Source: Streptomyces sp. Q6
GTDB taxonomy: Bacteria; Actinomycetota; Actinomycetes; Streptomycetales; Streptomycetaceae
Assembly: GCF_036967205.1 (NCBI RefSeq)
Contig: NZ_CP146022.1
Location: forward strand, 2,666,001 to 2,730,000
Direction of reading: 5' to 3'
DNA: 64,000 nt
In this document: piece by piece, positions 20,690-41,074 of the stretch
Layout: the number at the start of each line of letters is the position of its first letter
Position numbering within the stretch: position 1 is the stretch's first letter
Position numbers and translations under genes: made by a program
The notes under the pieces: model-generated
What the model was told of the DNA's origin: nothing
The model's input: only the letters and a program-made list of their open reading frames with translations
Database searches by the model: none

Positions 20690-20756
20690 TTGACACCTCC
20701 CCAGGGCCGTCCTTACTGTCACGCCAGCATTTCGAACGTGTGACGAAATATCGAAC
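20690..20756 (+). promoter_or_regulatory. promoter and IclR-type operator A
   Basis: TTGACA (20690-20695), an 18 bp spacer and TACTGT (20714-20719) form a good promoter. The operator-like TGACGAAATATCGAAC (20741-20756) starts 21 bases after the -10 box, with an extra TTCGAA at 20731-20736. It matches 12 of 16 positions of the motif shared with four other promoters in this window. Confidence 0.65.
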
Positions 20757-20775
20757 AGCTCAGGGGGCAACTGCC

Positions 20776-21936
20776 TTGCGCATCACGGGAATCAGCACGC
20801 ATGTGGTCGGGACTCCGTGGCGGAATCTGACCTACGTCCAGGTGCACACCGACGAGGGCATCACGGGCGTCGGCGAGACCCGGATGCTGGGCCACACCGA
20901 CGCTCTCATCGGCTACTTGAACGAGGCCAAGGCCAACCACATTCTCGGCTCCGATCCGTTCGCCGTCGAGGACCTCGTCAAGCGGATGAAGTACGGCGAC
21001 TACGGCCGCGCCGGCGAGATCGTCATGTCCGGCATCGCGGTGATCGAGATGGCCTGTTGGGACATCAAGGGCAAGGCCCTCGGCGTCCCCGTCTGGCAGC
21101 TGCTGGGCGGCAAGGTCACCGACAAGGTCAAGGCGTACGCCAACGGCTGGTACACCACGGAGCGGACGCCCGAGGCGTACCACAAGGCCGCGCGCACGGT
21201 GATGGAGCGCGGCTACAAGGCGCTGAAGATCGACCCCTTCGGGACCGGCCACTTCGAGCTCGACCACGCGCAGTCGCTGTACGCGGTCTCCCTGATCGAG
21301 GCCGTCCGCGACGCCATCGGGCCCGACGCGGAGCTGATGCTGGAGATGCACGGGCGGTTCTCCCCCGCCACGGCGATCCGGCTCGCCCGCGACCTCGCGC
21401 CGTTCAAGCCCGCGTGGCTGGAGGAGCCGGTGCCGCCGGAGAACCTCAAGGCGCTGGAGAAGGTCGCCGCGAAGGTCGACATGCCGGTCGCCACCGGTGA
21501 GCGGATCCACGACCGGATCGAGTTCCGGGAGCTCTTCGAGAGCCAGGCCGTCGACATCATCCAGCCCGACGTCGGTCACATCGGCGGCATCTGGGAGACG
21601 CGGAAGCTGGCCGCAACGGCCGAGACGCACTACATGCTCGTCGCCCCGCACAACGTGGGCGGCCCGGTGCTGACCGCCGCCTCGCTCCAGGTCGGCTTCA
21701 CCTCGCCGAACTTCAAGATCCTGGAGCACTTCAACGACTTCGCCGACGCCGACATCAAGAAGGTCGTCAAGGGCGCCCCGAAGGTCGTCGACGGCTACTT
21801 CGAGCTGTCGCACGAGCCGGGCCTCGGCGTCGAGTTCGACGCCGACGCGGCCGCCGAGTTCCCGCAGCAGCAGGCCCGGTTCGACCTGTGGGCCGAGGGC
21901 TGGGAGAAGCGCGACCCGACGGGCGGCTCCAAGTGA
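20776..21936 (+). CDS. enolase-superfamily sugar-acid dehydratase
   Basis: This is a 386-residue mandelate racemase/galactonate dehydratase-like enzyme. The metal ligands are expected at E190 (LMLEMHGRF), E216 (WLEEPVPPE) and E242 (GERIHDR). H192 and the D265/H292 pair (QPDVGHIGG, APHNVGG) are the acid/base groups, as in D-galactonate dehydratase. Such enzymes turn aldonates into 2-keto-3-deoxy acids. The TTG start at 20776 is chosen for its CAGGGGG ribosome-binding sequence and because an earlier in-frame GTG (20740) lies inside the operator. It is coupled by a 4 bp overlap to a zinc dehydrogenase. L-arabonate, galactonate or fuconate are possible substrates; the shared operator favours arabonate. 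Confidence 0.82.
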   Translation: MRITGISTHVVGTPWRNLTYVQVHTDEGITGVGETRMLGHTDALIGYLNEAKANHILGSDPFAVEDLVKRMKYGDYGRAGEIVMSGIAVIEMACWDIKGKALGVPVWQLLGGKVTDKVKAYANGWYTTERTPEAYHKAARTVMERGYKALKIDPFGTGHFELDHAQSLYAVSLIEAVRDAIGPDAELMLEMHGRFSPATAIRLARDLAPFKPAWLEEPVPPENLKALEKVAAKVDMPVATGERIHDRIEFRELFESQAVDIIQPDVGHIGGIWETRKLAATAETHYMLVAPHNVGGPVLTAASLQVGFTSPNFKILEHFNDFADADIKKVVKGAPKVVDGYFELSHEPGLGVEFDADAAAEFPQQQARFDLWAEGWEKRDPTGGSK

Positions 21937-22937
21937 GCAGCGCCGTCGTCGTCGAGGCGCCCGGCGAGCACCGGGTCGTGGCGCACGAGCCCGCCGCGCC
22001 GGGGCCCGGCGCGGCCCGGGTGCGGGTGCACGCCGTGGGCATCTGCGGCTCCGACCGCGAGGTGTACCAGGGCAACAGGCCCGAGGGGTACGTCCGTTAC
22101 CCGCTCACGCCCGGACACGAGTGGTCCGGTGTCGTGGACGCCGTGGGCGAGGGGGTGCCGGAGAGTCTGCTCGGGCGGAAGGTCGTCGGCGAGGGCTTCC
22201 GGAACTGCCAGGTGTGCGACCGGTGCCACGCGGGCGAGACAACGTTGTGCACCGCCGGGTACGAGGAGACCGGGTTCACCCAGCCGGGGGCCATGGCGGC
22301 CACGCTGACGCTGCCGGCGCGGCTGTTGCACGTACTGCCGGACGACGCCGACCTGACGGCCGCGGCGCTGCTCGAACCGGCCGCGTGCATCGCGGCCGCG
22401 GCGATCAAGGCGCAGGCGCTGCCCGGTGAGCGGGTGGCCGTGGTCGGGACCGGGACGCTCGGGATGTTCGCCGTGCAGTTCCTCGCGGCGGGGTCGCCGT
22501 CGGAGCTGCTCGTGGTGGGCTCGCGGGACGAACGGGCCGCGCTGTCACGGCAGTTCGGTGCCACCGACTTCCGCCTTCGGGGCGACGAGCTGCCGGACGA
22601 CTTCGACGTGGTGATCGAGACGGCCGGGTCGGCCTCGGCCGCGCGGACCGCCGCGTCGCTGCTGCGGCGGGGCGGACGGCTCGTCCTCACCGGGATTCCG
22701 GCGGCCGGGGCCGAGGGCCTCGACCCGACGGACCTGGTGGTGCGGCAGCTGGAGGTGCGGACCGTGTTCGGGGCCGCGCCGGACGCGTGGGCCCACGCGG
22801 TGCGGGTGTTCGGGGCAGGGCTGCTCGATCCGCTGCCGCTCGTGACGCACGAGGTTCCGCTGGAGCGTTTCGCCGAGGCCATCGAGTTGGTGGGCGCCGG
22901 GGATCCGAAGGTGGGGAAGGTTCTGTTGCGTCCTTGA
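21933..22937 (+). CDS. zinc-dependent sugar/polyol dehydrogenase (MDR)
   Basis: This is a 334-residue zinc alcohol dehydrogenase. The catalytic zinc ligands are C38 (VGICGSDRE) and H62-E63 (TPGHEWSG). The structural zinc cysteines are at 92, 95, 98 and 106. The NAD(P) motif VAVVGTGTLGMFAVQF follows. The GTG start overlaps the dehydratase stop by 4 bp. Next to a sugar-acid dehydratase, oxidation of an aldose at C1 to its lactone is the likely reaction, with L-arabinose the best guess; oxidation of a hydroxy acid is an alternative. Confidence 0.82.
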   Translation: MSSAVVVEAPGEHRVVAHEPAAPGPGAARVRVHAVGICGSDREVYQGNRPEGYVRYPLTPGHEWSGVVDAVGEGVPESLLGRKVVGEGFRNCQVCDRCHAGETTLCTAGYEETGFTQPGAMAATLTLPARLLHVLPDDADLTAAALLEPAACIAAAAIKAQALPGERVAVVGTGTLGMFAVQFLAAGSPSELLVVGSRDERAALSRQFGATDFRLRGDELPDDFDVVIETAGSASAARTAASLLRRGGRLVLTGIPAAGAEGLDPTDLVVRQLEVRTVFGAAPDAWAHAVRVFGAGLLDPLPLVTHEVPLERFAEAIELVGAGDPKVGKVLLRP

Positions 22938-22950
22938 GTCGTGCGCGGGG

Positions 22951-23072
22951 GATCTGCGGCGGTCCAACCGGCCGCGGGAGCCGACCTGTTGGACCGGTTC
23001 CCGCTCGTCGTGGCAGGTCGCGCCCCGCGGCGGAGCCGCAGATCGACACCGCCCCGCACCCCTTACGGGGCG
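22951..23072 (+). other. structured intergenic region with nested inverted repeats
   Basis: GATCTGCGGC (22951-22960) pairs perfectly with GCCGCAGATC (23035-23044). Inside, GGTCCAAC (22961-22968) pairs with GTTGGACC (22988-22995). A separate CGCCCC/GGGGCG hairpin (23050-23055, 23067-23072) followed by CTTT comes last and may terminate the upstream operon. The nesting predicts a multi-stem RNA of about 95 nt. No known riboswitch class was recognised. Confidence 0.5.
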
Positions 23073-23104
23073 CTTTCATCCGAACCCTGTTCGAAATCTC
23101 GAAC
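23064..23104 (+). promoter_or_regulatory. IclR-type operator B with candidate -10
   Basis: GTTCGAAATCTCGAAC at 23089-23104 is the best copy of the shared motif, with 6 bp arms GTTCGA/TCGAAC. TACGGG (23064-23069), 19 bases upstream, matches the TACGGT-type -10 box of the other sites. The -35 box is not convincing here. Confidence 0.65.
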
Positions 23105-23127
23105 CTATGGAACGTAAGGACAACAGC

Positions 23128-24084
23128 GTGACCTCCTCCCCCCGTCTCCCCGGCGAACCCGCCCTCTCCGCACTCGGGCTCGGCGCACCCGCCCTCGACC
23201 CGGCCGACGCCTCCGCGCACGCGTTCCCGGACGGGGGCACCTGGCGGGTCGAGATCCCCTCCGTCGAGGGGCCCGAGGCCGTCGGGGTCGTGCTCAAGGA
23301 GGCCTCGCGGCTCGATGTGCCGATCCACCGGATCAGCCAGGGCAGCGGCGTCTGGATGCTGCGCGACGCCGAGATCGTCGAGATGGTCGAGGCGACCGCC
23401 GAGCGCGACATCGAGCTGTGCCTGTTCACCGGGCCGCGCGGCACCTGGGACACCGGCGCCTCCGTGCGCACCGACTCGCGCGGCGCGGGCCTGCGGGCCC
23501 GGGGCCACGACGCCGTCGCCGGATGCGTCGAAGACGCCGTGCGCGCCACGGAGTTGGGCGTGAAGTGCCTGCTGGTCGCCGACGAGGGCGTCCTGTGGAC
23601 CCTGCACCGGGCGCGTACCCAGGGGGTCATCCCCGCCGACACCACCCTCAAGGTCTCCGCGCTGATCGGACCCGTGAATCCGGCCGCGTACGCGGTCTAC
23701 GAGCAGCTCGGCGCCGACTCCCTGAACGTGCCGAGCGACCTGACGCTCCAGCACCTCACCGAGATCCGGCGGGTCTCGGCCGCGCCGATGGACATGTACG
23801 TCGAGGCCCCCGACGACCTCGGCGGGTATGTCCGGATGTACGAGATCGCCGAACTCGTGCGGCGCGGCGCTCCGTTGTATCTGAAGTTCGGGCTCGCCAA
23901 GGCTCCGGCGATCTACCCCTACGGCGCCCACCTGCGCGACGTCACCCTCGACACCGCGCGCGAGCGGGTGCGCCGCGGACGGCTCGCGCTCGACCTCCTG
24001 GAGCGGCACGGCGCCGACACCGGGATGTCACCGCTCGGGTCCCGGCTGCCCGGTGATCTCAAGCGCTTCGACACGGCCCAATAA
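23128..24084 (+). CDS. TIM-barrel-like protein of unknown function, candidate sugar-acid lyase
   Basis: This is a 318-residue soluble protein. Alternating strand-helix units ([75 protein letters not shown]) suggest a TIM barrel, loosely like the peptidase U32 fold or HpcH-type aldolases. No zinc or Schiff-base lysine motif is certain, though KFGL carries a conserved-looking Lys. The GTG at 23128 is preferred to an ATG at 23107 because AAGGA lies 9 bases before it and the ATG directly abuts operator B. It lies between the dehydratase pair and the sugar transporter, so it is a candidate for cleaving or dehydrating the 2-keto-3-deoxy acid. Confidence 0.55.
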
Positions 24085-24223
24085 CGTTCCGGAAACACAA
24101 CTTCCCAGATCCGCACAAGGCCGCGCAGAATCCGACGCAACTCTCCTCGGTCAACCCCCGCTCCTCACCAGCGACTTCGCACCGCCGACCGAGCTCTGCA
24201 CTCACACATCAAGGATGATGACC

Positions 24224-25339
24224 ATGCGAAACCGCCGAGCCGCTCTCGCAGCGATAGCCGCCTCCGCCTCCCTCGCCCTGACGCTGACCGCCTGCGGTCA
24301 AAGCAGCGAGGGCGGCAAGGACGAGGGCAAGAAGAGTGCCGAAGGATCGACGGTCGGCATCGCGATGCCGACGAAGTCCTCGGAGCGTTGGATCGCCGAC
24401 GGCAACAACGTCGTGAAGTCGCTGAAGGCGAAGGGCTACAAGACGAAGCTGGTCTTCGGCGAGGACGACCCCGACCAGCAGGTCTCGCAGATCGAGAACA
24501 TGATCACGCAGGGCGTCTCGGCGCTGATCGTCGCCGCGATCGACAACAAGTCGCTCAGCTCGGTGCTCCAGCAGGCCGCCGACGCCGACATCCCGGTCAT
24601 CGCCTACGACCGGCTCATCCTCGACTCGAAGAACGTCAGCTATTACGCGACGTTCGACAACGAGAAGGTCGGCGAGCTCCAGGCCGGTTCGCTGGTCACC
24701 AAGCTGGGCCTCGACTCCGGCAAGAAGGGCCCGTTCAACGTCGAGCTGTTCGCCGGCTCCAACGACGACAACAACACCAAGTACTTCTTCAACGGAGCGA
24801 TGAAGACGCTCCAGCCGTACATCGACAAGAAGCAGGTCGTCGTCAAGTCCGGCCAGACCAAGCTCAACCAGGTCACCACGCTGCGCTGGGACGGCGCCAC
24901 CGCCCAGAAGCGCATGGACGACATCCTGACCTCGACGTACAAGGGCAGCACCCGCGTGGACGCGGTGCTCTCCCCGTACGACGGCATCTCCATCGGCATC
25001 CTCTCCGCCCTGAAGTCGGACGGCTACGGCTCCAAGTCCAAGCCGCTGCCGGCCGTCTCGGGCCAGGACGCCGAGGTCGCCTCGGTGAAGTCGATCATCG
25101 CGGACGAGCAGTACTCGACCGTCTACAAGGACACCCGTGAGCTGGCCAAGGTCGCGGTGACCATGGTCGACGACGTGCTGCACGACAAGAAGCCCGAGGT
25201 CAACGACACCAAGACGTACGACAACGGCGCCAAGGTCGTCCCCTCGTACCTGCTCAAGCCCGTCCTGGTCACCAAGGAGAACTACGAGAAGGAACTGGTC
25301 GACGGCGGTTACTACACCAAGGCCGACCTGGGCCTGTAA
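24224..25339 (+). CDS. sugar ABC transporter substrate-binding lipoprotein (ChvE-like)
   Basis: This is a 371-residue periplasmic-binding-type lipoprotein. The signal ends at the lipobox LTAC (Cys24). The mature part is a ribose/xylose/ChvE-type two-lobe binder, with [42 protein letters not shown] and [13 protein letters not shown]. Of three clustered ATG codons, 24224 is best placed behind AAGGA. ATPase and permease genes follow directly. ChvE homologues bind arabinose, galactose and glucose, which fits the neighbouring enzymes. Confidence 0.9.
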
Positions 25340-25375
25340 GTACCCCTGTCCGACCACTAGTTGAAGGGCACGACC

Positions 25376-26938
25376 ATGGCGGGACCCGTCCTGGAAATGC
25401 GCTCGATCGTCAAGACCTTTCCCGGTGTCAAAGCGCTCTCGGACGTCACGCTGACAGTACGTCAGGGCGAGGTCCACGCCATCTGCGGTGAGAACGGCGC
25501 CGGAAAGTCCACTTTGATGAAGGTGCTCTCCGGCGTCCATCCGCACGGCACGTACGAGGGCGAGATCCTCTTCGAGGGGCAGCCCTGCGAGTTCAAGGAC
25601 ATCAACGCGTCCGAGAAGCGCGGCATCGTGATCATCCATCAGGAACTGGCCCTCGTGCCGTTCCTGTCGATCGCCGAGAACATGTTCCTCGGCAACGAGC
25701 ACGCCACCCGCGGAATGATCGACTGGCGCGAGACCCTGCGCCACGCCACCCGGCAGCTGCGCCGGGTGGGCCTGTCCGAGAACCCCAACACCCGGATCGC
25801 CGACATCGGTGTCGGCAAGCAGCAGCTCGTGGAGATCGCCAAGGCGCTCGCCAAGGACGTGAAACTGCTGATCCTGGACGAGCCGACCGCGTCGCTCAAC
25901 GACGAGGACTCCGGCAAACTCCTCGACTTGATCCTGGAGTTGAAGGAACAGGGCATCACCTCGATCATCATCTCGCACAAGCTCAACGAGATCCGGCGCG
26001 TCGCCGACTCGGTGACGATCCTGCGCGACGGCCGCACCATCGAGACCCTCGACGTGCACGCCGACGAGACCAGTGAGGACCGGATCATCTCCGGGATGGT
26101 CGGCCGCGACCTGGAGCACCGCTTCCCCGAGCGGACCCCGCACCAGGCCGAGAAGGGCGCCGCCCCGGCCCTGGAGATCCGCAACTGGACCGTGCACCAC
26201 CCCATCGACCGCGAGCGCAAGGTCGTCGACGACGTCTCGCTGCACGTACGCCGCGGGGAGATCGTCGGCGTCGCGGGCCTGATGGGCGCCGGCCGCACCG
26301 AACTCGCGATGAGCGTCTTCGGGCGGACCTACGGCCGGTACGCGGGCGGCACCGTCCTCAAGGACGGCAAGGAGATCCGTACGAAGTCGGTCGCGGAGGC
26401 CGTCGGACACGGCATCGCCTACGCCACCGAGGACCGCAAGCACTACGGGCTCAACCTCATCGACACCATCAACCGCAACATCTCCCTCGCCGCGCTCGGC
26501 AAGGTCTCCAAGCGGGGTGTGGTCGACGAGCACGGCGAGCGTCAGGTCGCCGAGGAGTACCGCACGTCGATGAACATCAAGGCCCCGACGGTCTTCGAAC
26601 CGGCGGGCAAGCTGTCCGGCGGCAACCAGCAGAAGGTCGTCCTCAGCAAGTGGATCTTCGCGGGTCCCGAGGTGCTGATCCTCGACGAGCCGACCCGCGG
26701 GATCGACGTCGGTGCCAAGTACGAGATCTACACGGTCATCGACAAGCTGGCCGCCGAGGGGAAGGCGGTCGTCTTCATCTCGTCCGAGCTGCCCGAACTG
26801 CTCGGCATGTGCGACCGCATCTACACGATGAGCGCGGGACGGCTGACCGGTGAGGTCACCCGCGCGGAGGCGACGCAGGAGTCCCTGATGCGCCTGATGA
26901 CCAAGGACAAGAACGGGACAGAAGAGGTAACGCGATGA
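25376..26938 (+). CDS. sugar ABC transporter ATP-binding protein (GguA/MmsA-like)
   Basis: This is a 520-residue tandem ATPase. Domain 1 has Walker [10 protein letters not shown] at about residues 38-46 and Walker [12 protein letters not shown]. Domain 2 has a degenerate Walker A (GLMGAGRTE), the signature LSGGNQQK and [13 protein letters not shown], the usual asymmetry of ribose-type importers. The ATG at 25376 follows GAAGGG by 7 bases. Its stop overlaps the permease start by 4 bp. Confidence 0.93.
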
Positions 26939-28179
26939 GCACGGACGTGATGGACAAGTCCCCGGCGCCCGCGCCGCCGGGCAAGGGCGGGACCACCGCC
27001 GAAGGCGGACTGCTGCGTCTCGTGCTCGACGGGATGCGCCGCAACATGCGCCAGTACGGCATGCTGCTCGCGCTCGGCCTGCTCGTGATCGTGTTCGCCA
27101 TCTGGACCAACGGCGACCTGATCCTGCCGCGCAACGTCTCCAACCTGGTGCTGCAGAACAGCTACATCCTGATCCTCGCGATCGGCATGATGCTGGTCAT
27201 CATCGCCGGGCACATCGACCTGTCGGTCGGCTCGCTGACCGCGTTCGTCGGGTCGACGGCCGCCGTCCTGATGGTCAGCCACGACGTGGCCTGGCCGATC
27301 GCCGCGATCATCTGCCTCGCGATGGGCGGCGCCGCCGGCTGCATCCAGGGCTGGCTGATCGCGTACGGAGGCATACCCTCCTTCATCGTGACGCTGGCGG
27401 GCATGCTGGTGTGGCGCGGCCTCACCGAGATCCTGCTGAAGGGCCAGACGCTCGGCCCGTTCCCCGAGGGCCTCGGCAAGCTCGGCAACGGCTTCCTGCC
27501 CGAGGTCGGCCCGAACACGAACTACCACAACCTGACCCTGCTGCTGGGCGTCGTGCTCGCCGCCGCCGTGGTGATCCAGGAGCTGCGCGACCGGCGCCGC
27601 CAGCAGGAGTTCGCGCTCGAACTGCCGCCGTTCAACCTGTTCGTCCTGAAGCTGGTCGCGATCGTCGCCGCCATCGCCGTGGTGACGATGCTGCTCGCCA
27701 GCTACAAGGGCGCCCCGATCGTCCTGCTGATCCTCGGCGTCCTGGTCGTCGGCTACGGCTACCTGATGCGCAACTCGATCTTCGGCCGGCACATCTACGC
27801 CATCGGCGGCAACCTCCCGGCGGCGAAGCTCTCCGGCGTGAAGGACAAGAAGGTCTCCTTCTACGTCTTCCTGAACATGGGCGTGCTCGCGGCCCTGGCG
27901 GGTCTGGTCGTGGCCGCCCGCCTGAACGCGGCCTCGCCGAAGGCCGGCCTCAACTTCGAGCTGGAGGCCATCGCCGCGTCGTTCATCGGCGGCGCCTCCA
28001 TGAGCGGCGGTGTCGGCACCGTTCTCGGCGCGATCATCGGCGGTCTCGTCCTCGGTGTGCTGAACAACGGCATGAACCTGCTCGGCGTCGGCTCCGACTG
28101 GCAGTCGGTGATCAAGGGGCTCGCCCTGCTCGCCGCGGTCGGCTTCGACGTCTGGAACAAGCGCCGCGTCGGCTCGTAG
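26935..28179 (+). CDS. sugar ABC transporter permease (GguB/MmsB-like)
   Basis: This is a 414-residue permease of the ribose/xylose BPD_transp_2 family with about ten or eleven transmembrane helices. Typical segments are [33 protein letters not shown] and, near the end, [20 protein letters not shown]. The ATGA overlap with the ATPase gene makes the three transporter genes one unit. A single permease presumably acts as a homodimer. A mutarotase follows after 78 bp. Confidence 0.93.
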
Positions 28180-28257
28180 CCGCTCGCGCGTCGATCAGGA
28201 GTCGCAACTCGTACGTCGCACGTCATCAGGCACCACTCCCCCAGCTAGGAGCGTCAG

Positions 28258-29409
28258 ATGGACACGACCAGACGAACGGTGCTCGCGGCGGCCGCTGCCG
28301 CGGGCATCGCCGCCACCACCACCGTCGGTGGCACGGCGCACGCCGCGTCAGGAAGGAAGCCGGTGAAGGAGCCCTTCGGTAAGCTCGCCGACGGCACGAA
28401 GATCTACCGCTGGTCCCTGGAGAACGGCGGCACCCGCCTGAAGGTCCTCTCCTACGGCGGCATCGTGCAGTCGCTGGAGATCCCTGACCGCCACGGCCGC
28501 TACAAGAACGTCTCCCTCGGCTACGACAACATCGAGGACTACGTCGCGGGCACCACGTTCTTCGGCGCCACCATCGGCCGCTACGGCAACCGCATCGCGA
28601 ACGGCCGCTTCACGCTCGACGGGAAGACGTACCAGCTCTCCGTGAACGACGGGGTCAACTCCCTGCACGGCGGCGCCAAGGGCTTCAACACGCGGGTGTG
28701 GGACGTGGAGGGCTTCACCTCGGGCTCCGACGTCGGCCTGAAGCTGCACTACACGTCGGTCGACGGCGAGATGGGCTACCCCGGCACGCTGCGCACCACG
28801 GTCACGTACACGCTGACCGCGCGCGGCGACTGGCGGATCGACTACACGGCCACGACGGACAAGGCGACCGTCGTGAACCTCACCAACCACACGTACTACA
28901 ACCTGGCGGGTGAGGGCAGCGGCGGCATCTACGACCACGAACTGACCCTCGCCGCCTCGCGCTTCACGCCCACCGACTCGGGGCTCATCCCGACCGGTGA
29001 GCTGGCGAAGGTCGCGGGCACCCCGTTCGACTTCCGCTCCGCGAAGCCGATCGGCCGCGACATCCGGATCGCGCACCCGCAGCTGGTCACGGCCAAGGGC
29101 TTCGACCACAACTGGGTGCTCGACAAGGGGATCACCGCGAAGCCCGTGCACTTCGCGACGCTGCGCGACCCGTCGTCGGGCCGCACCCTGAAGATCGCCA
29201 CCGACCAGCCCGCCGTCCAGTTCTACTCGGGCAACTTCCTCGACGGCACGCTCACCGGCCCGTCCGGGCGCACCTACCGGCAGGGCGACGGCCTCTGCCT
29301 GGAGACGCAGCACTTCCCGGACTCGCCGAACCAGCCCTCGTTCCCCTCCACCGTGCTGCGGCCCGGTGAGACCTACCGGACGACGACGGTGCACTCCTTC
29401 AGCGCCTGA
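28258..29409 (+). CDS. exported aldose 1-epimerase
   Basis: This is a 383-residue GalM-type mutarotase with a Tat-like signal peptide (TTRRTVLAAAAAAGIAA and an AHA cleavage site near residue 30), so it acts outside the membrane. Active-site segments are GRYGNRIANGRF, SLHGGAKGFNTRVWD, NLTNHTYYNLAG and CLETQHFPDSPNQPSFPST. It is the last gene of the sugar ABC operon. Extracellular mutarotation would present the anomer preferred by the binding protein, and it would be useful for arabinose released by the arabinan-degrading enzymes at 33-36 kb. Confidence 0.9.
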   Translation: MDTTRRTVLAAAAAAGIAATTTVGGTAHAASGRKPVKEPFGKLADGTKIYRWSLENGGTRLKVLSYGGIVQSLEIPDRHGRYKNVSLGYDNIEDYVAGTTFFGATIGRYGNRIANGRFTLDGKTYQLSVNDGVNSLHGGAKGFNTRVWDVEGFTSGSDVGLKLHYTSVDGEMGYPGTLRTTVTYTLTARGDWRIDYTATTDKATVVNLTNHTYYNLAGEGSGGIYDHELTLAASRFTPTDSGLIPTGELAKVAGTPFDFRSAKPIGRDIRIAHPQLVTAKGFDHNWVLDKGITAKPVHFATLRDPSSGRTLKIATDQPAVQFYSGNFLDGTLTGPSGRTYRQGDGLCLETQHFPDSPNQPSFPSTVLRPGETYRTTTVHSFSA

Positions 29410-33324: not shown

Positions 33325-34833
33325 TCAGCCGAGCCGGATCACGTTCCACGACAGCGGTTCGAGGGTGGCCTTGAGCGTGCCGGCGTCCAGGGTCGTGCCG
33401 GTGCCGGCGTGCGGGGCCACACGCTCCGGGTCGGTGAGGGTGTTGCGGGCGTCCGGGTCGGCGTCGGCGAGCACCGAGTGCTCGACGACCGTCGTCAACT
33501 CAAGTGCATGCAGGGCGACTTCGAGGGGAAGCGCTTGTGTCTGGCTGCGGTTGACCGCGAAGACGGTAACCGTGCCGTCCTCGGCGCGGACGGCCGTCGC
33601 GTGCAGCAGGTCCGCGGTGCCGTGGCGCTTCGTGTCGTAGGTGGGACCCGACACGCGGACGTCGAGGACCTCGCCCCGGCCGTACTTGGCGGCGGCCGCG
33701 AACGGGAAGAACGTCGTCTGGCGCCAGGCCGCGCCGCCGGGCTCGGTCATGATCGGCGCGATGACGTTGACCAGCTGGGCCAGGCACGCGACCGTGACGC
33801 GGTCCGCGTGGCGCAGCAGCGCGATCAGGAGCGAGCCGAAGACGACCGCGTCCGTGACGGAGTAGACGTCCTCCAGGAGGCGGGGGGCCTCCGGCCAGTC
33901 CAGGGCCGAGACCTGGGCGTCGGTGCGGGACATGTACCAGACGTTCCACTCGTCGAAGGAGAGGTTGATCTTCTTCGACGACTTGAGCTTGGCGCCCACG
34001 TGGTCGCAGGTCGCGACGACGTTCTCGATGAACGACTCCATGTCGACCGCGGAGGCGAGGAACGAGTCGCGGTCGCCGTCGTGCTCCTCGTAGTAGGCGT
34101 GCAGGGAGATGTAGTCGACGAGGTCGTAGGTCTCGGTGAGGACCGTCGCCTCCCACTCGGCGAACGTGTCCATGCCCTGGCCGGAGGAGCCGCAGGCGAC
34201 GAGTTCGACGTCCTTGTCTATCTGGCGCATCGCGCGGGCCGTCTCGGCCGCGATCCGCCCGTACTCCTCGGCCGTCTTGTGGCCGGTCTGCCAGGGGCCG
34301 TCCATCTCGTTGCCCAGGCACCACAGGCGGATGCCGAAGGGGTCCTTGTCGCCGTGGGCGATGCGCAGGTCGGAGAGCGCCGTGCCCTGCGGGTGGTTGG
34401 CGTACTCCTGGAGCTCGATGGCCTCGGCGACCCCGCGCGTGCCGAGGTTGACCGCCATCATCGGCTCGGCCTGCGGGCCGACCTTCTTCAGGAAGGCGAT
34501 GTACTCGGACAGGCCGAACCGGTTCGACTCCGTCGTGCGCCAGGCGAGGTCGAGGCGCTTGGGGCGGTCCTCGACGGGGCCGACGGAGTCCTCCCACTTG
34601 TAGCCGGAGACGAAGTTGCCGCCGGGGTAGCGGATGGCCGTGACCCCGAGTTCACGGACCAGTTCGAGGACGTCCGTGCGCAGTCCGGCCTCGTCGGCCG
34701 TGGGGTGCTCCGGCTCGAAGATGCCGGTGTAGACGCAGCGGCCGAGGTGTTCCACGAACGAGCCGAACAGGCGCGGATCGACCTTGCCGACGGTGAACGC
34801 GGGGTCGAGGGCGAATCGGGCGGTACGAGTCAT
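33325..34833 (-). CDS. GH51 alpha-L-arabinofuranosidase
   Basis: This is a 502-residue GH51 retaining enzyme that releases L-arabinofuranose from arabinan and arabinoxylan oligosaccharides. The acid/base Glu is in LWCLGNEMDGPWQ and the nucleophile Glu in LSFDEWNVWY. RLFGSFVEHLGRCVYTGI is the characteristic N terminus. There is no signal peptide, so it works in the cytoplasm on imported oligomers. It is transcribed alone from promoter C, which carries the shared operator, and lies downstream of the arabinanase operon. Confidence 0.94.
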   Translation of the reverse strand: MTRTARFALDPAFTVGKVDPRLFGSFVEHLGRCVYTGIFEPEHPTADEAGLRTDVLELVRELGVTAIRYPGGNFVSGYKWEDSVGPVEDRPKRLDLAWRTTESNRFGLSEYIAFLKKVGPQAEPMMAVNLGTRGVAEAIELQEYANHPQGTALSDLRIAHGDKDPFGIRLWCLGNEMDGPWQTGHKTAEEYGRIAAETARAMRQIDKDVELVACGSSGQGMDTFAEWEATVLTETYDLVDYISLHAYYEEHDGDRDSFLASAVDMESFIENVVATCDHVGAKLKSSKKINLSFDEWNVWYMSRTDAQVSALDWPEAPRLLEDVYSVTDAVVFGSLLIALLRHADRVTVACLAQLVNVIAPIMTEPGGAAWRQTTFFPFAAAAKYGRGEVLDVRVSGPTYDTKRHGTADLLHATAVRAEDGTVTVFAVNRSQTQALPLEVALHALELTTVVEHSVLADADPDARNTLTDPERVAPHAGTGTTLDAGTLKATLEPLSWNVIRLG

Positions 34834-34898
34834 GAAGGACTGCCTCTGTGGTGTGTCGGTTGGGTCTGGCGCCCCCGGCGAGGGATCACGCCAACTTC

Positions 34899-34964
34899 GT
34901 TCGAAATCACGGACATTGGTCGAACCAGCGGACAAACCGTAAGGCGGGCGCGAACCGTCGTCAA
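34899..34964 (-). promoter_or_regulatory. promoter and IclR-type operator C for GH51
   Basis: On the minus strand TTGACG (34964-34959), a 17 bp spacer and TACGGT (34941-34936) form the promoter. The operator, plus-strand GTTCGAAATCACGGAC at 34899-34914, begins 21 bases after the -10 box and matches 14 of 16 motif positions. The -35 box lies in the loop of the terminator of the upstream operon. Confidence 0.7.
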
Positions 34965-34979
34965 TGCTTCGCGCCCGCC
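34943..34979 (-). terminator. hairpin terminator after the GH43 gene
   Basis: The 12-base arms 34943-34954 (GGCGGGCGCGAA) and 34968-34979 pair perfectly around a 13-base loop, 23 bases beyond the GH43 stop. It separates the ABC-arabinanase operon from the GH51 gene while overlapping the GH51 promoter. Confidence 0.8.
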
Positions 34980-35001
34980 CCGGCGCCGGTGGGCCGCGTC
35001 G

Positions 35002-35979
35002 TCAGGACACGGCCGGCCAGCCGTCCTTGCCCCAGCTCAGCTCGTTGAGGCCGAGCTTCGGGGTGCCGTTGTCCTCGGCGTCGTAGTAGTGGTACGCGAG
35101 GACGTCGCGCCCCTTGTCCTGGAAGACGGACTCGCCGCCGGTGCCGACGAACCGGCCGTGCCCGGCGAGGAGCAGCGAACCGCCGCCGTCCAGGAGGGCC
35201 TTGCCGTCCTTGTCGACGTACGGGCCCGTGACCGACGTCGAGCGGCCCACCCGGATCTTGTACGTGGAGTTCACACCGGAGCAGCACGCGTCGTACGAGG
35301 CGAGGAGGTAGTAGTGGCGGCCGTGCTTGACGACCGCCGGGCCCTCCACGGCGTACGGGGCGTCGGGGCGGGTGGCGAGGTGGTGGACGGTGGCCCCGGT
35401 GATCGCTTTCCCCGTGCGGGGGTCGAGCTCGACCATGCGGATGCCGGTCCAGTACGAGCCGAAGGACATCCAGAGCCTGCCGCCCGCGCGGACGATCCCC
35501 GGGTCGATGGCGTTCCAGCTGTCGCCGGTCTCCGAGGAGAAGACCTTGCCGTGGTCCGTCCAGGTGCCCGGGAGTCCGGAGTCGGAGGTCGCGACGCCGA
35601 TCGCCGAGTGGTTCGTGCCCCAGGAGGAGACCGCGTAGTAGAGCCAGTATCTGCCGTCCCGGTACGAGATGTCCGGGGCCCACGGGTCGCCGGTGGCGTT
35701 GTACTCGTACCACCAGCTCGGCGGGGTGGCGAAGGCGTTGCCCTCGTCGGACCAGTCGACGCGGTTCGACGAGAGGCGGGCGCCGATGATCCCGCCGGTG
35801 GAGTAGGCGACGTAGCGGCCGTCCTTGAGCTTGACGACGGTCGGGTCGTGGATGATCTGCTGGCCGGTGATGGTCTGCGGGTCCGGGTAACTCTGCGCCG
35901 CCTGGGCCGCGTTCGGCAGGAGGGCGAGCATGCTCGCCGCGGCCGCCGCGCCGATCGCCGCGCGCACGGTCGTGGTCAC
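35002..35979 (-). CDS. GH43 endo-alpha-1,5-L-arabinanase, secreted
   Basis: This is a 325-residue GH43 enzyme with an N-terminal signal peptide (about residues 1-28, ending AQA). The five-bladed propeller active site is visible: base D45 in IIHDPTVV, pKa-modulating D159 in NAIDPGIV and acid E212 in YAVEGPAV. WAPDISYRDGRYWLYY is a family core motif. It cuts linear arabinan outside the cell, feeding arabino-oligosaccharides to the adjacent ABC importer. The GTG start overlaps the permease stop by 4 bp, so it is the last gene of that operon. Confidence 0.92.
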   Translation of the reverse strand: MTTTVRAAIGAAAAASMLALLPNAAQAAQSYPDPQTITGQQIIHDPTVVKLKDGRYVAYSTGGIIGARLSSNRVDWSDEGNAFATPPSWWYEYNATGDPWAPDISYRDGRYWLYYAVSSWGTNHSAIGVATSDSGLPGTWTDHGKVFSSETGDSWNAIDPGIVRAGGRLWMSFGSYWTGIRMVELDPRTGKAITGATVHHLATRPDAPYAVEGPAVVKHGRHYYLLASYDACCSGVNSTYKIRVGRSTSVTGPYVDKDGKALLDGGGSLLLAGHGRFVGTGGESVFQDKGRDVLAYHYYDAEDNGTPKLGLNELSWGKDGWPAVS

Positions 35980-36842
35980 TGTCCCGCCAATCCCGTGTGG
36001 GCGACGCCCGCCACGATCTGCCGCTGGAAGAAGACGAACACGATGATGAGCGGCAGGCCCGCCATCAGGCCGCCGGCCATGAGCTGGGCCCACTGGATGC
36101 CGTAGGAGTTCATGACGGTCGCGATGCCGTTCGGCATGGTCATCAGGTCGGGGTTGTTGGTGACCATGTACGGCCACAGGAAGTTGTTCCACGACGCGAT
36201 GAAGGTGAAGATGCCGACCGCCGCGAGGGAGGGGCGGGCGAGCGGGACGACGATGGTGAAGAAGACCCGCCAGCGGCCCGCGCCGTCGATGAACGCGGCC
36301 TCCTCCAGCTCGCGCGGGATGCCCTGGAAGAACTTGTAGAGGATGTAGACCATGGCCGCCGGGGCGCACTGCGGCAGGATCATGCCCCAGTACGTGTCGA
36401 CCATCCCCATCTGCTGGACCGTGGTGAACAGCGGGACGCCGAGGACCGCCGGGGAGACCATGAGGCCGGCCATGACGACGCCCATCAGGACGTTCTTGCC
36501 CTTGAACTCCGTGCGGGCGAAGCCGTATCCGGCGAGTGCGGCGACGGCGAGCACGATCGCGGTGACGCAGACGGAGACGACGAGCGAGTTCACGAACCAG
36601 TTGGAGACGTTGCCGGTCTCCCACAGCGCCTTCCACGCCTGGGTCGTCCACACCTTCGGCAGCCAGTGCGGCGGGATCTCGGCGGCCTCGGCCTCGGACT
36701 TGAGGGAGGTGAGCAGGGCCGCGGCGATCGGCGCCAGGAAGGCGGCGGAGACGGCCACGCCGAGCAGCGTGAGGACGATCTGGCTGGGCGTCCAGGGCCT
36801 GCGTGCCTTGCGGGACCCGACCGGTGTCTCGGTGGCGGTCAT
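35976..36842 (-). CDS. carbohydrate ABC permease, MalG type
   Basis: This is a 288-residue permease with six predicted helices and the EAA loop EEAAFIDGAGRWRVFFTIVVPL that docks a shared ATPase. It is the second of two permeases between the binding-protein gene and the arabinanase gene, with 4 bp overlaps on both sides. No ATPase gene is in the operon; in Streptomyces the common MsiK ATPase usually serves such CUT1 importers. The likely cargo is arabino-oligosaccharide. Confidence 0.92.
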   Translation of the reverse strand: MTATETPVGSRKARRPWTPSQIVLTLLGVAVSAAFLAPIAAALLTSLKSEAEAAEIPPHWLPKVWTTQAWKALWETGNVSNWFVNSLVVSVCVTAIVLAVAALAGYGFARTEFKGKNVLMGVVMAGLMVSPAVLGVPLFTTVQQMGMVDTYWGMILPQCAPAAMVYILYKFFQGIPRELEEAAFIDGAGRWRVFFTIVVPLARPSLAAVGIFTFIASWNNFLWPYMVTNNPDLMTMPNGIATVMNSYGIQWAQLMAGGLMAGLPLIIVFVFFQRQIVAGVAHTGLAGQ

Positions 36843-37780
36843 CGAGTGCCCTCCTCACGGTTGCGCAGCAGCACCATCCGCCCGAGGGCGACGGCCGCGA
36901 TGATCACGAAGAAGATGATGGACATCGCGGAGGCGTAGCCCACGCGGTAGCTGGTGAAGCCCTGTTCGAGGGTGTACTGCACGAAGGAGCGGGTGGAGAG
37001 CTCGGGTCCTGGACCGAAGTCCATCATCACGACGGCCTGGTCGAAGAGCTGGAGCGAGGCCAGGATCTGGAGCGCGACGACGAGCCCCGTGATGTGGCGC
37101 AGCATCGGCAGGGTGATGTGGACCATGCGGTGCCAGGCGTTGGCGCCGTCCAGCTTCGCGGCCTCGTAGAGGTGGCCGGGGATGCCCTGGAGCGCGGCGA
37201 GGTACAGCAGGAAGGAGAAGCCGACGGTCCACCACAGGGTGGTGATGACGATGGCGAGCATCGCGTACGACTTGTCGGTCAGCCAGGGCGTCTCGATGCC
37301 GAAGGTGTGGTTGAACAGGCCGATGCCCTGCGTGAACAGCCACTGCCACATGTTGGCCGCGACCGTCGACGGCAGCAGGAACGGGGCGAAGAAGCACAGC
37401 CGCCACAGCCACTTCGCGCGCTCGATGTGGTGCGCGAGCATCGCGAGCAGGAACGCGAGGAGCGTGATGCACGGGACGACGAGGAGCGTGAAGTACGCGC
37501 TGTGTCCGAGCGCGTCCCACATGGCCTGGTCGTTCAGGGCGTCGCGGTAGTTGTCGAGGCCGACGAAGCTGGCGCCGTCGCCGGAGATGTTGGCGTCCGT
37601 GAAGCTGAGGTAGACGCCACGCAGCAGCGGCCAGATCACGAACAGCGCGAACAGCACCAGGAAGGGGGCGACGAACCAGCCCCCGTGCTGGAAGCCCTGC
37701 TTGCGGCGGACGGTGGTGCTCACGACCGCGCTCTTCGCGCGCGCCGGGGCGATGACGCTCTCAGCACTGGTCGTCGTCAT
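36839..37780 (-). CDS. carbohydrate ABC permease, MalF type
   Basis: This is a 313-residue CUT1 permease with six helices after a cytoplasmic N-terminal tail of about 30 residues. The EAA loop is YEAAKLDGANAWHRMVHITLP. PFLVLFALFVIWPLLRGVYLSF is the typical first helix. Its start overlaps the binding-protein stop and its end overlaps the MalG-type permease start, each by 4 bp. It pairs with that permease to form the import channel. Confidence 0.92.
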   Translation of the reverse strand: MTTTSAESVIAPARAKSAVVSTTVRRKQGFQHGGWFVAPFLVLFALFVIWPLLRGVYLSFTDANISGDGASFVGLDNYRDALNDQAMWDALGHSAYFTLLVVPCITLLAFLLAMLAHHIERAKWLWRLCFFAPFLLPSTVAANMWQWLFTQGIGLFNHTFGIETPWLTDKSYAMLAIVITTLWWTVGFSFLLYLAALQGIPGHLYEAAKLDGANAWHRMVHITLPMLRHITGLVVALQILASLQLFDQAVVMMDFGPGPELSTRSFVQYTLEQGFTSYRVGYASAMSIIFFVIIAAVALGRMVLLRNREEGTR

Positions 37781-39126
37781 GCGACCGCACCTCCCTGCGC
37801 GGCGGTCTTGCCGTCCATCGGGTTCTTCGAGGCGAGGAGCTTGCCGAGCTCCGTCTTCATGCGCCGCGCGACGGCGTCCGGCTTGGCGGAGCCCATCGTC
37901 GAGGAGACGACCATCGGACCGAGGTCCTGGGCGAGGACGCCGGTGGAGCCCGCGAACCACACCTTGGGCTCGGTGGCCTGGTGGTCCATGGCGCTCACGT
38001 ACTCGTTCTGCGGGGTGAGCTTCTTGTACGCGGCCGTCGACAGGTTCGGCGTGTACGCGGGGATGTGGCCGCCGGCCGCCCACTGCTGGGCGTGCTTGAC
38101 GACGTACGCGGCGAGTTCGTGCGCGCCCTCGTTGGTGGCGCCGCCGCGGTCGCCCTGGTGCGGCAGGACGAAGGAGTGCGACTCGGCGTGCGTGGCCTGC
38201 TTGCCGAAGACGGGCGGCAGCGGGGTGGCGCCGTAGTCCAGCTCGGCGCCGGAGAAGACGGGCACCGACCAGTTGCCCTCCCAGGTGAAGGGGGCGCCGT
38301 TGATGAACTGCTCGCCGGTGGGCGCGCCCGGGATCACATAGCCGTCGGTGACGTGCCGGCGGAGGAACTCCAGGACCTGGGTGGCCTTGTCGGCGTCGAA
38401 GCGGACGTCGGTGCGCTCGTCGTTGAACCACTCGCCGCCGAGCTGGGTGTAGAAGGCGACGAAGAACCACCACTGGAAGTTCTGGTCGTTGGTCCACAGG
38501 CCGATGGTCTGGAGGCCCTTCTTCTGGACCTTCTTGGCCTTCTTCAGCACGTCGAACCAGTCGGCGGTGGAGGTGGCCTGGATCATCCGGCCGTCGTCGT
38601 CGAGCAGGTCCGCCTTCTTCAGGACGTCCTTGCGGTAGAAGCAGAGCTGTACGTGGATGTCGAGCGGCAGGGCGTAGAGCTTGCCGTCGATGATGCCGCG
38701 GTTCCACAGATCGGGGTTGTAGTCCTCCTTCCGTACGCCGTACTTGGCGAGGAGGTCCATGTCCCAGGGGTCGAGGAGGCGACCCGGCGAGAAGCCCGCG
38801 ACCCGGCCGAGGTGCATCACGCCGAGCTCGGGGGCGCGGTTGCCCGCGGCCGCCATGGCGAGTTTCGTGTAGAAGGGGTTGCCCCACTGGAGGGTGGAGT
38901 CCTTCACGTCGATGTCCGGATGCTCCTTACGGAAGGAGTCCAGCATCGCGATCATGTTCGCGCCGTCGCCGCCACTGAAGAGGTTCCAGTAGCGCACTCG
39001 GGTGTCCGCGCCGGAGGCCAGCGCGTCGGCGCCGGTGCCGAGCGCCGCGAAGCCGAAGCTTCCGGCGACCGTCAACCCGCCTATCCCGCCAAGGATCTGC
39101 CTGCGACTCAGGCCAGGTCGTCCCAT
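37777..39126 (-). CDS. carbohydrate ABC substrate-binding protein (CUT1), Tat-exported
   Basis: This is a 449-residue solute-binding protein whose N terminus carries a Tat-type signal (LSRRQILGGIGGLTVAGSFG), with no lipobox Cys seen. The mature part shows the SBP family 1 pattern: VRYWNLFSGGDGANM, KLYALPLDIHVQLCFYRKDV and INGAPFTWEGNWSVP. It is the first gene of the transporter-arabinanase operon, behind promoter D and its operator. The genomic setting indicates arabino-oligosaccharides as ligand. Confidence 0.92.
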   Translation of the reverse strand: MGRPGLSRRQILGGIGGLTVAGSFGFAALGTGADALASGADTRVRYWNLFSGGDGANMIAMLDSFRKEHPDIDVKDSTLQWGNPFYTKLAMAAAGNRAPELGVMHLGRVAGFSPGRLLDPWDMDLLAKYGVRKEDYNPDLWNRGIIDGKLYALPLDIHVQLCFYRKDVLKKADLLDDDGRMIQATSTADWFDVLKKAKKVQKKGLQTIGLWTNDQNFQWWFFVAFYTQLGGEWFNDERTDVRFDADKATQVLEFLRRHVTDGYVIPGAPTGEQFINGAPFTWEGNWSVPVFSGAELDYGATPLPPVFGKQATHAESHSFVLPHQGDRGGATNEGAHELAAYVVKHAQQWAAGGHIPAYTPNLSTAAYKKLTPQNEYVSAMDHQATEPKVWFAGSTGVLAQDLGPMVVSSTMGSAKPDAVARRMKTELGKLLASKNPMDGKTAAQGGAVA

Positions 39127-39146
39127 GCCCTGCCCTTACTGTTGAT

Positions 39147-39214
39147 GTTCGAGATTTCGGCTGCTGCCCGTAACTTCGAACGGGACCGTATGGTTGAAGC
39201 GCTTCGACCGTCAA
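39147..39214 (-). promoter_or_regulatory. promoter and IclR-type operator D for the ABC-arabinanase operon
   Basis: On the minus strand TTGACG (39214-39209), an 18 bp spacer and TACGGT (39190-39185) are followed after 22 bases by the operator at 39162-39147 (plus strand GTTCGAGATTTCGGCT, 13 of 16 matches). The same -10 hexamer is used at promoter C. Confidence 0.7.
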
Positions 39215-39260
39215 TGGGTTGGACACCGAAAAGTTTCGGTCGCGTGACGGCACGGAAAAG

Positions 39261-39303
39261 CCGCAGCCGCGCCCGCCCGGTGTGCGGGCGGACGCGGCTG
39301 CGG
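39261..39303 (-). terminator. hairpin terminator after the lactonase gene
   Basis: CCGCAGCCGCG and CCGCCC on the left (39261-39278) pair with GGGCGG and CGCGGCTGCGG on the right (39286-39303), with one mismatched base. It lies 34 bases beyond the restored SMP-30 stop, which supports that stop as the true gene end. Confidence 0.8.
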
Positions 39304-39336
39304 CGTGGGTGCGGCCGGGTGTGCGGCCGGCGGCGG

Positions 39337-40181
39337 CTATCCGAAGGCGGGCTGCGGCAGCCCTGTCCCGCGCCGGGCAGCACCAGCAGTGAACCCTCCA
39401 GCGGGGACGGTGAGTTGAGGCCCACGCGGGCCGTGGAGACGTACAGGTCCGTCAGGTCGCGGCCGCCGAACGCACACGCCGTCGGGCGGCGCACCGGCAG
39501 CGGGACGACCCGGTCCAGGGCGCCGGACGGCGTGTAGCGGCGCAGGGCTCCGCCGTCCCACAGGGCCACCCAGACGCAGCCGTCGGCGTCGACGGTGAGG
39601 CCGTCGGGGAAGCCGGCGCCCTCCTCCACGGTCGCCAACTCCCTGCGCCCGCGCACCTGTTCACTGTCCACGTCGAAGACGTCGATGCGGCGGGTCGCCG
39701 TGTCGACGTAGTACATGAGCGTGCCGTCGGGGCTCCAGCCGGTGCCGTTGGAGACGGTGACGTCGTCGAGGATCCCGGCCACCGCGCCGTCGGGCGCCAG
39801 GCGGATCAGGGTGCCGCCGCCGGGCGTCTCGTCGTACGCCATCGAGCCCGCCCAGAGCGAGCCGTCGGGGGCGACCGCCGCGTCGTTGCCGCGGCGGCCG
39901 GGGACGGGGTCGCGGTGCAGCCAGGCGAAGGCGCCCTCGGGCGAGTAACCGCCCACGCCGTCCCGGAGGTTGACCACGAGACCGCCGTCGGTGCGCGGCT
40001 TCGCGGCGCCCACGTGCTGCTCGGTGGCCAGGACCGTGCGGCGGCCGCTGCCGGGCTCGTACGTGTGGACGCGCGAGCCGAGGATGTCCACCCAGATCAG
40101 CCGGTCCTTCGCCGCGTCCCAGGTCGGGCCCTCGCCCAGTTCGGCGGTGGCGAGGACCGCCACGTCGGGCGCCGTGGTCAT
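39337..40181 (-). pseudogene. SMP-30/gluconolactonase family lactonase, frameshifted near the end
   Basis: This is a six-bladed propeller sugar lactonase. Metal-site segments are visible: the Glu of ELGEGPTWD near residue 15, RGNDAAVAPDG (Asn) near residue 98, SNGTGWSPDG (Asn) near 145 and FPDGLTVDADG (Asp) near 193. At CCC 39361-39363 one base seems lost. Adding it gives a 281-residue protein ending GLPQPAFG, the normal family ending. As written, the frame reads on for 83 codons through the terminator and promoter D to 39108. It would open L-arabino-lactone or a similar aldonolactone. The start overlaps the IclR stop by 4 bp. Confidence 0.8.
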
Positions 40182-40954
40182 CGGGCCACCCCGCGGTGGC
40201 CGAGCCGCTCGGACAGGTCGGCGGCGCCCTTGGTGGCGAGCTGCGCCAGCTCGTCCTCGCGCGCGTCGCTCCAGCGGATCATCGGTACGGAGATGGAGAG
40301 GGCGGCGACGACCCGGTTGGTGCGGTCGTGGACGGGGGCGGCGACGCAGGACACGTCCGTGTTCGACTCGCGGCTCTCGACGGCCCAGCCGCGCTCGCGG
40401 ATGCCGAGGAGGTGCTCGCGCAGCACGGCCGGGTCCGTGATGCTGTTCTCCGTCATGGCGAGCAGGTCGGCGTCGTCCGGGATCCGCGCGGCCAGCTCGG
40501 GCTCGGGCAGCGACGCGAGGAGCATCTTGCCGACCGAGGTGCAGTGGGCGGGCAGCCGGCGTCCGGCGGCGGAGACCATCCGCACGGCGTGCGTGGAGTC
40601 GACCTTGGCGATGTAGATGACGTCGGTGCCTTCGAGGATCGCCACGTGGACCGTCTCGTCGCAGGTCTCGGCGACGGTACGGGCGACCTGCTGGCCCTCG
40701 GCGGCGAGGTCGAGCTGCTCCGCGTACCGGCTGCCGAGCTGGTAGGGGCGTACCCCGAGCCGATAGCGGCCGGGCTGGCCCGGGACCTGGACGATGTAGG
40801 AGCGGGCGGCGAGGGTGGTGACGAGTTCGTGCACGGTGGTGCGCGGGAGCTGTAGCTTGCGGACGATGTCGGGGGCGGACAGCGTGCCGTCCCCGTCCAG
40901 GAAGAGCTCCAATATGTCCAGAGCCCGGGTCACGGCGGGTACGAGGCGTCCCAC
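40178..40954 (-). CDS. IclR family transcriptional regulator
   Basis: This is a 258-residue regulator with an N-terminal winged helix (AVTRALDILELFLD, LPRTTVHELVTTLAARSYI) and the IclR effector domain (LPAHCTSVGKMLLA, AAPVHDRTNRVVAALSIS). The GTG start is used. Its own promoter carries the shared operator (site E), so it is the best candidate for the protein that binds all five sites. KdgR-type IclR proteins respond to 2-keto-3-deoxy sugar acids, which would fit the enzymes controlled here. It is coupled to the lactonase gene. Confidence 0.9.
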   Translation of the reverse strand: MGRLVPAVTRALDILELFLDGDGTLSAPDIVRKLQLPRTTVHELVTTLAARSYIVQVPGQPGRYRLGVRPYQLGSRYAEQLDLAAEGQQVARTVAETCDETVHVAILEGTDVIYIAKVDSTHAVRMVSAAGRRLPAHCTSVGKMLLASLPEPELAARIPDDADLLAMTENSITDPAVLREHLLGIRERGWAVESRESNTDVSCVAAPVHDRTNRVVAALSISVPMIRWSDAREDELAQLATKGAADLSERLGHRGVAR

Positions 40955-41007
40955 GTCCGGCCCCCCTCCAAGTCGAGATGCCGTTGTTCCGTCGACCCGT
41001 TTCCGGT

Positions 41008-41074
41008 GTTCGAGATTTCAACGGTCGGTCGGTATGACGAACATAGGCTAGTCATAGCCGCCTCGACCCGGCAA
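41008..41074 (-). promoter_or_regulatory. promoter and IclR-type operator E for iclR
   Basis: On the minus strand TTGCCG (41074-41069), an 18 bp spacer and TAGCCT (41050-41045) precede the operator at 41023-41008 (plus strand GTTCGAGATTTCAACG, 13 of 16 matches) by 21 bases. This arrangement predicts autorepression. Confidence 0.65.

Follow-up and report, generated by a model that had tools for sequence, protein, structure and literature searches.

A tandem operator and an IclR-family protein as candidates for the control of L-arabinose use in Streptomyces

Can one regulator account for two separate sugar gene clusters of Streptomyces sp. Q6? The DNA analysed here (the window) is a stretch of 64,000 nucleotides, positions 2666001-2730000 of contig NZ_CP146022.1 in an 8.95-Mb, two-contig genome. 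It carries a dehydratase-dehydrogenase cluster and a cluster consisting of an ATP-binding cassette (ABC) importer and a glycoside hydrolase (GH) of family 43, as well as a gene for an IclR-family regulator. An earlier annotation made from the letters alone (the sequence-only reading) had proposed that five GTTCGAAATCTCGAAC-like sites join both clusters into a single IclR regulon. We find that each site is one half of a longer operator. Judging from comparative sequence evidence, the IclR protein encoded at 40178-40954 very probably controls its own gene and, as a master regulator, the use of L-arabinose and of arabinan/arabinoxylan; it would repress from the tandem operators until L-arabinose or an early product releases it.

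All five sites exist as claimed. Scanning the window for GTTCGAAATCTCGAAC with up to three mismatches returned six match rows where 0.16 are expected, a number reached by none of 100 shuffles. These rows represent the sites at 23089 (both strands), 34899, 39147 and 41008, plus a position at 8418 on the minus strand. The fifth site, at 20741-20756, has 12 of 16 matches and was read directly. More specifically, every one of the five is the second half (site B) of a 35-bp tandem made up of a 16-mer, 3 nt and another 16-mer, with the two centres 19 bp apart. The first half (site A), which had been overlooked, ends 3 nt before the reported 16-mer at all five window sites; its left half is degenerate at the dehydratase gene and at a gene without recognizable family, referred to below as the orphan gene. 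The 16-mers are of the GTTCG..CGAAC type, matching the GTT-11-AAC palindrome of the IclR family, and the 19-bp spacing of all five lies within the 18-22 nt found for tandem sites in this family.

A matrix trained solely on sites of relatives (79 iclR and 56 ABC-type sites) gave the window operators the scores listed in Table 1, and the next-best place in the window reached 13.3 at position 2074. In 10 Mb of simulated sequence, three positions scored 19 or more with order-3 statistics and none with order-1 statistics. The GH51 operator does not represent a fully untrained class for this matrix, because some of the relatives' ABC-type sites directly precede GH51 genes.

The operator is conserved among relatives. 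For this comparison, 80 iclR orthologue loci were kept from GTDB genomes, all with Streptomyces titles. Their upstream regions (130 nt taken) keep, in order, CCATTGCC, TAGCCTrT, GTTCGtcATnCCGAtC, three bases and nGTTGAAATnTCGAAC, and the complete 35-mer is found in 79 of 80 (44 distinct sequences). For the dehydratase and orphan genes, the 30 best matches each (of 79 and 81 genomes, own genome included) were used. All 30 dehydratase upstreams contain a CCATTGACAC-type -35, a -10 and the tandem operator, with scores of 17.0-29.4. In all 30 orphan-gene upstreams the best-scoring site lies just before the gene, with both right half-sites clear by eye and scores of 5.9-20.5. The ABC upstreams of relatives score at least 15 in 41 of 42 cases.

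Which protein would bind these operators? The window's IclR protein matches PF09339 with 51 bits (cut-off 22) and PF01614 with 162 bits (cut-off 24). In a survey of 121 Streptomyces genomes, its gene was found in 82, the dehydratase in 79 and the orphan gene in 81. All 79 genomes with the dehydratase also have IclR; three IclR genomes are without the dehydratase, one of them with the orphan gene, and 39 have neither IclR nor dehydratase. In 13 of these 79 genomes, iclR and the dehydratase gene stand next to each other in divergent orientation (161-426 bp apart, match to match), and each of the 13 intergenic regions contains two tandem operators, one per promoter. Elsewhere they lie far apart, for example at 7064920 and 2602177 in genome G052. 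A sample of the order comprised 197 genomes from six genera; the IclR orthologue (E≤1e-80) was present in 129 of them, all belonging to a single genus.

Furthermore, we built a profile (R1) from the five window sites and 17 sites of relatives, and scored 150 candidates per genome out of 1153-2650 first-look candidates. At E≤0.5, it yielded 83 hits in 12 IclR-positive genomes (3-15 each) and two in 12 IclR-negative genomes (E 0.216 and 0.357). The pattern of co-occurrence, divergent pairs and profile hits singles out the window's IclR protein as the best candidate by a wide margin. The earlier proposal of one operator and one IclR regulon joining the two clusters thus gains support from the conserved footprints, the 79/79 co-occurrence and the 13/13 divergent pairs, and the genome-wide and related-genome scan that it had called for, run here with R1, did not refute it. 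Two independent regulons were considered and ruled out by the co-occurrence and the divergent gene pairs.

The predicted regulon reaches far beyond the two clusters and is genome-wide and arabinose-centred. With 150 of 2254 candidates scored, R1 gave 11 hits at E≤10 in the own genome, namely the five window sites, five distal sites with E<1 and one match at E 8.6, which we take for chance. All five distal sites adjoin hydrolase genes for arabinose-containing polymers (Table 1; proteins at the distal loci were assigned by eye, and Pfam gave the tallies). Both PF06964-type GH51 genes of this genome have the operator, and four of its seven GH43 matches lie in units inferred to start at one. Pfam analysis of 40 hand-picked hit neighbours from the own genome and relatives counted AbfB 12 times, GH43 10, GH51 domains 4, GH27 (alpha-galactosidase type) 4, GH62 3, GH10 3, sugar-binding protein 2, and GH127, ArabFuran-catal, FGGY kinase and amidase once each, with families overlapping within proteins. 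The putative targets comprise import, arabinoside hydrolysis and catabolism, as in an L-arabinose regulon, with enzyme specificities taken from family names. At 6709026, the transporter of the major facilitator superfamily (MFS) starts about 25 nt past the tandem operator; its substrate may be an arabinose-derived compound.

How L-arabinose is broken down is the next question. A search with PF02610 (L-arabinose isomerase, araA) left the own genome without a match; counting it, 10 of the 13 IclR-positive genomes tested gave none, and two of the 12 IclR-negative genomes have a match. The three IclR-positive genomes with araA all carry a tandem site upstream. In G107, a site scoring 42.1 precedes an FGGY kinase gene that lies directly before araA. 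In G013 and G110, a site scoring 25.6 is found some 1.8 kb upstream of araA, in the place where one would expect araB, and the next-best score in these two 15-kb regions is 0.3. Since no araA was found in the own genome, the dehydrogenase, the SMP-30-type lactonase, the dehydratase and the orphan protein form a plausible oxidative L-arabinose route, with enzyme roles that we infer. A gene of the SMP-30 type (PF08450) adjoins iclR in all 80 loci, which places a putative lactonase within the regulon. In the window its frame has 357 codons for amino acids, compared with 280-284 in ten relatives checked; it departs from the common C-terminal sequence when only a few residues of the usual length are left, then crosses the ABC promoter and reaches the beginning of the binding-protein gene, which may reflect a sequencing error or a real change.

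The orphan protein had been labelled a TIM barrel in the sequence-only reading. At E 0.001, neither Pfam nor NCBIfam has a model that matches it. Searched against the PDB, the single sequence had two weak matches (E 0.29 and 1.7) and the profile none, and a single-sequence structure prediction was unusable, with a mean predicted local distance difference test (pLDDT) score of 42. The label is therefore unproven. For its gene, GTG 23128, which AAGGA precedes, is a likelier start codon than ATG 23107.

Tentatively, and at a little less than an even chance, we propose that many Streptomyces without araA use an undescribed oxidative L-arabinose route. In this route, a Zn-dehydrogenase, an SMP-30 lactonase and an enolase-superfamily L-arabinonate dehydratase would be followed by the orphan protein, a new enzyme family acting on L-2-keto-3-deoxyarabinonate. 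The route and the arabinan/arabinoxylan-degrading secretome would be switched together by the IclR repressor. It is a serious possibility, if one we would not quite back, that the dehydratase-dehydrogenase-orphan operon serves another sugar acid instead, such as galactonate or a xylose product, and is merely co-induced with arabinose genes. The nearest NCBIfam model of the dehydratase is galactonate dehydratase, just missed with 299.5 bits at a cut-off of 311, and the protein stays below the listed equivalog cut-offs. In addition, the available text of PMC12772271 reports for Streptomyces sp. SirexAA-E that a galactonate dehydratase (SACTE_1895), a dehydrogenase (1896), a sugar importer (1898-1900) and an alpha-N-arabinofuranosidase (1901) are more abundant on xylose than on glucose, SACTE_1898 also on xylan. 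By name and order, SACTE_1895-1901 looks like the window cluster and, by analogy, would support co-regulation; its response to xylose speaks for another sugar acid. Against this stand the arabinose-related hydrolase loci at the five distal targets, the missing araA match in the own genome and in nine of the 12 other IclR-positive genomes, and the SMP-30-type gene tied to iclR.

The sign of regulation can be judged from the promoters, whose geometry was re-measured by eye. They read TTGACA-18-TACTGT (dehydratase), TTGACG-17-TACGGT (GH51), TTGACG-18-TACGGT (ABC) and TTGCCG-18-TAGCCT (iclR). From the -10 to the start of site B the distance is 21, 21, 22 and 21 nt, respectively, and some 19 nt at the fifth promoter, so the values given in the sequence-only reading are correct. 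They are constant because site A fills the gap: the four clear promoters have its start 2-3 nt past the -10, and the doubtful one of the orphan gene 0-1 nt past it. The predicted operator therefore covers the probable start site. A TTGAC/TTGCC pentamer was sought 20-59 nt before the operator (a random control had one anywhere in this range in 133 of 2000 cases). The pentamer begins 31-33 nt before the operator in all 56 ABC-type and all 30 dehydratase promoters, in the latter always at 32-33 nt, as well as in 51 of 53 iclR promoters and 29 of 45 distal ones.

In the mechanism that we propose, an IclR tetramer, with two dimers on one DNA face, would bind the two 16-bp palindromes of the operator. 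Its occupancy would cover the start site and extend over about 30 bases into the transcribed region, hiding the start from RNA polymerase. Initiation would be shut at iclR-SMP30, ABC-GH43, GH51 and dehydratase-dehydrogenase, and the orphan gene has one more site ahead of it. Through its own operator, iclR would be autoregulated. L-arabinose or an early product would presumably release IclR, leading to a joint rise of import (ChvE-GguA-GguB and the MalEFG-type system), of hydrolysis by GH51, GH43 and the secreted enzymes, and of catabolism. With the start site inside the operator, occluded initiation is a better fit than the elongation roadblock that had been suggested; a roadblock is less likely as the general mechanism and may act at the orphan gene. 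IclR-family members can act as activators and/or repressors, so that the protein might activate, or both activate and repress, its target promoters. We regard this as unlikely, given that at four window promoters, and at most of those in relatives, the operator is downstream of the -10 and spans the start site, where an activator is unexpected.

The orphan gene stands apart. The promoter claimed for it is weak and overlaps a local inverted repeat, and no TTGAC/TTGCC pentamer occurs 20-59 nt before its operator in any of the 30 upstreams, own genome included. Transcription of the gene therefore probably comes from upstream or from a promoter of a different type, and the operator may act as a block. 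The gap before it (22938-23104) contains several inverted repeats, and in many relatives a GTACGCCGGTACGG..CCGTACCGGCGTAC-like hairpin is seen there by eye, perhaps a terminator with the operator directly after it.

Several observations weigh against a simple arabinose-released IclR repressor at all these sites. The orphan-gene site is without a conserved promoter and scores down to 5.9 in relatives, GH51 upstreams of relatives score at least 15 in only 25 of 64 cases, and 16 of 45 distal sites have no -35 pentamer at 31-33 nt. As only 150 of the first-look candidates were scored per genome, the R1 target lists are incomplete, and the response of the SirexAA-E set to xylose, as far as the available text goes, means that the inducer may not be arabinose alone. 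Finally, the own genome has 25 IclR_C matches, so paralogues exist. With these paralogues in mind, the sites could be common while another regulator, of the IclR or another family, binds some or all of them, above all at the dehydratase cluster. GTTCG-type palindromes are common for the IclR family according to the main text of PMC8222616, and of the relatives' 56 ABC-type promoters, 39 have a AAGCGCTT-like palindrome of the LacI type in their spacer (AAGCGCT or AGCGCTT within 45 nt before the operator), where a second regulator therefore probably acts. Nevertheless, we consider replacement of the window's IclR by another binder quite improbable in view of the operator in iclR's own promoter (79 of 80), the strict co-occurrence and divergent pairs, and the near-absence of R1 hits in the 12 IclR-negative genomes. 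In the window itself, the ABC promoter spacer (39191-39208, minus strand) contains GAAGCGCTTC, a LacI-type palindrome.

That the five sites are alike by chance, or through some general feature of promoters, has a probability of practically nil. In favour of this reading, the 16-mer alone, with at most three mismatches, has 62 genome-wide match rows (both strands, with each palindrome counted twice), compared with 11 for its reversed control; the single 16-mer is without genome-wide specificity, and the true unit is longer. Conservation and the simulated null rule out chance similarity, and the content of the genome-wide hits contradicts it as well.

Table 1. Features of the window (window positions) and distal operator sites (genome positions).
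Feature	Position	Strand	Basis or remark
Dehydratase-operon promoter	-35 TTGACA 20690-20695; -10 TACTGT 20714-20719	+	read in sequence
Dehydratase-operon tandem operator	20722-20756 (A 20722-20737, B 20741-20756)	+	untrained matrix score 22.0
Enolase-superfamily sugar-acid dehydratase, proposed L-arabinonate dehydratase	20776-21936	+	MR_MLE_N, MR_MLE_C
Zn-dependent dehydrogenase	21933-22937	+	ADH_N, ADH_zinc_N
Orphan-gene tandem operator	23070-23104 (A 23070-23085, B 23089-23104)	+	untrained matrix score 19.6
Orphan 318-aa protein, proposed catabolic enzyme of the route	23128-24084	+	orthologues in 81 of 121 Streptomyces
ChvE-GguA-GguB monosaccharide importer	24218-28179	+	NCBIfam equivalogs over cut-off
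Aldose 1-epimerase	28258-29409	+	PF01263
GH51 arabinofuranosidase, ArfA type	33325-34833	-	NF051901 over cut-off
GH51 tandem operator	34899-34933; -10 34936-34941, -35 34959-34964	-	matrix score 19.3 on this strand, 23.8 on the other
MalEFG-type importer and GH43	35002-39126	-	open reading frames; GH43 match at genome 2701014-2701859; importer parts by eye, conserved in relatives
ABC-GH43 tandem operator	39147-39181; -10 39185-39190, -35 39209-39214	-	matrix score 45.9, trained class
SMP-30/gluconolactonase-type gene	39108-40181	-	PF08450 on first 241 residues; start overlaps iclR stop
IclR-family regulator, proposed binder of all tandem operators	40178-40954	-	HTH_IclR, IclR_C over Pfam cut-offs
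iclR tandem operator	41008-41042; -10 41045-41050, -35 TTGCCG 41069-41074	-	matrix score 45.5; complete 35-mer in 79 of 80 orthologue upstreams
Distal site	828706		before secreted GH43
Distal site	1540058		before secreted GH51
Distal site	7258180		before gene read as GH127
Distal site	8095836		between genes read as GH62 and GH10
Distal site	6709026		before MFS transporter, then two GH43 matches

Two neighbouring genes complete the picture. An aminotransferase-like gene (by eye; 29582-30850, plus strand) follows the epimerase gene, which it adjoins in several relatives, and has no operator of its own. Upstream of iclR lies a regulator gene that is PucR-like by eye (41114-42343, minus strand); of the 80 loci from relatives, at least 47 also have it in the vicinity of iclR. 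An Rfam scan of the window at gathering thresholds gave no match.

These predictions connect the use of L-arabinose, in roughly two of every three Streptomyces genomes sampled (82 of 121), with one gene and an exactly defined 35-bp operator, and link secreted GH43, GH51, GH62 and GH127 enzymes, importers and catabolism in one predicted regulon. They would also offer a tight arabinose-type promoter for the genus, and suggest a testable function for a conserved orphan protein.

The oxidative L-arabinose pathway is non-phosphorylating, and its dehydratase is of the IlvD/EDD type. The window set resembles it in bringing together a dehydrogenase, a putative SMP-30-type lactonase and a proposed sugar-acid dehydratase in one predicted regulon. 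It differs in that its dehydratase belongs to the enolase superfamily and in that the orphan stands where an aldolase or a second dehydratase is expected. AraC and AraR, the L-arabinose regulators of other bacteria, share with the window's IclR the proposed pathway-specific control of arabinose import, hydrolysis and catabolism, whereas the protein families are different (AraC and GntR/LacI types). TtgV of Pseudomonas putida (PDB 2xrn, 2xro) is homologous to the window's IclR (phmmer E 4.2e-17), with different targets. In the available text of PMC12772271, the IclR-like SACTE_5479 is discussed as an allantoin-repressor homologue, from pull-downs with other promoters. Among the titles that our literature searches brought up, none named such an L-arabinose regulator for Streptomyces, and the word part "Arabin" was not found in the main text of PMC8222616, where the group may be listed in the supplement. 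That main text (Suvorova and Gelfand 2021, PMC8222616) gives the IclR-family motif as GKTYCRY..RYGRAMC, of the GTT-11-AAC type, whose targets are often sugar or sugar-acid genes, refers to binding as a tetramer in the family, and describes tandem palindromes with centres 18-22 nt apart in 94 orthologous IclR groups. The architecture of the operator is therefore already known, and the window operator is like these systems in both motif type and tandem spacing.

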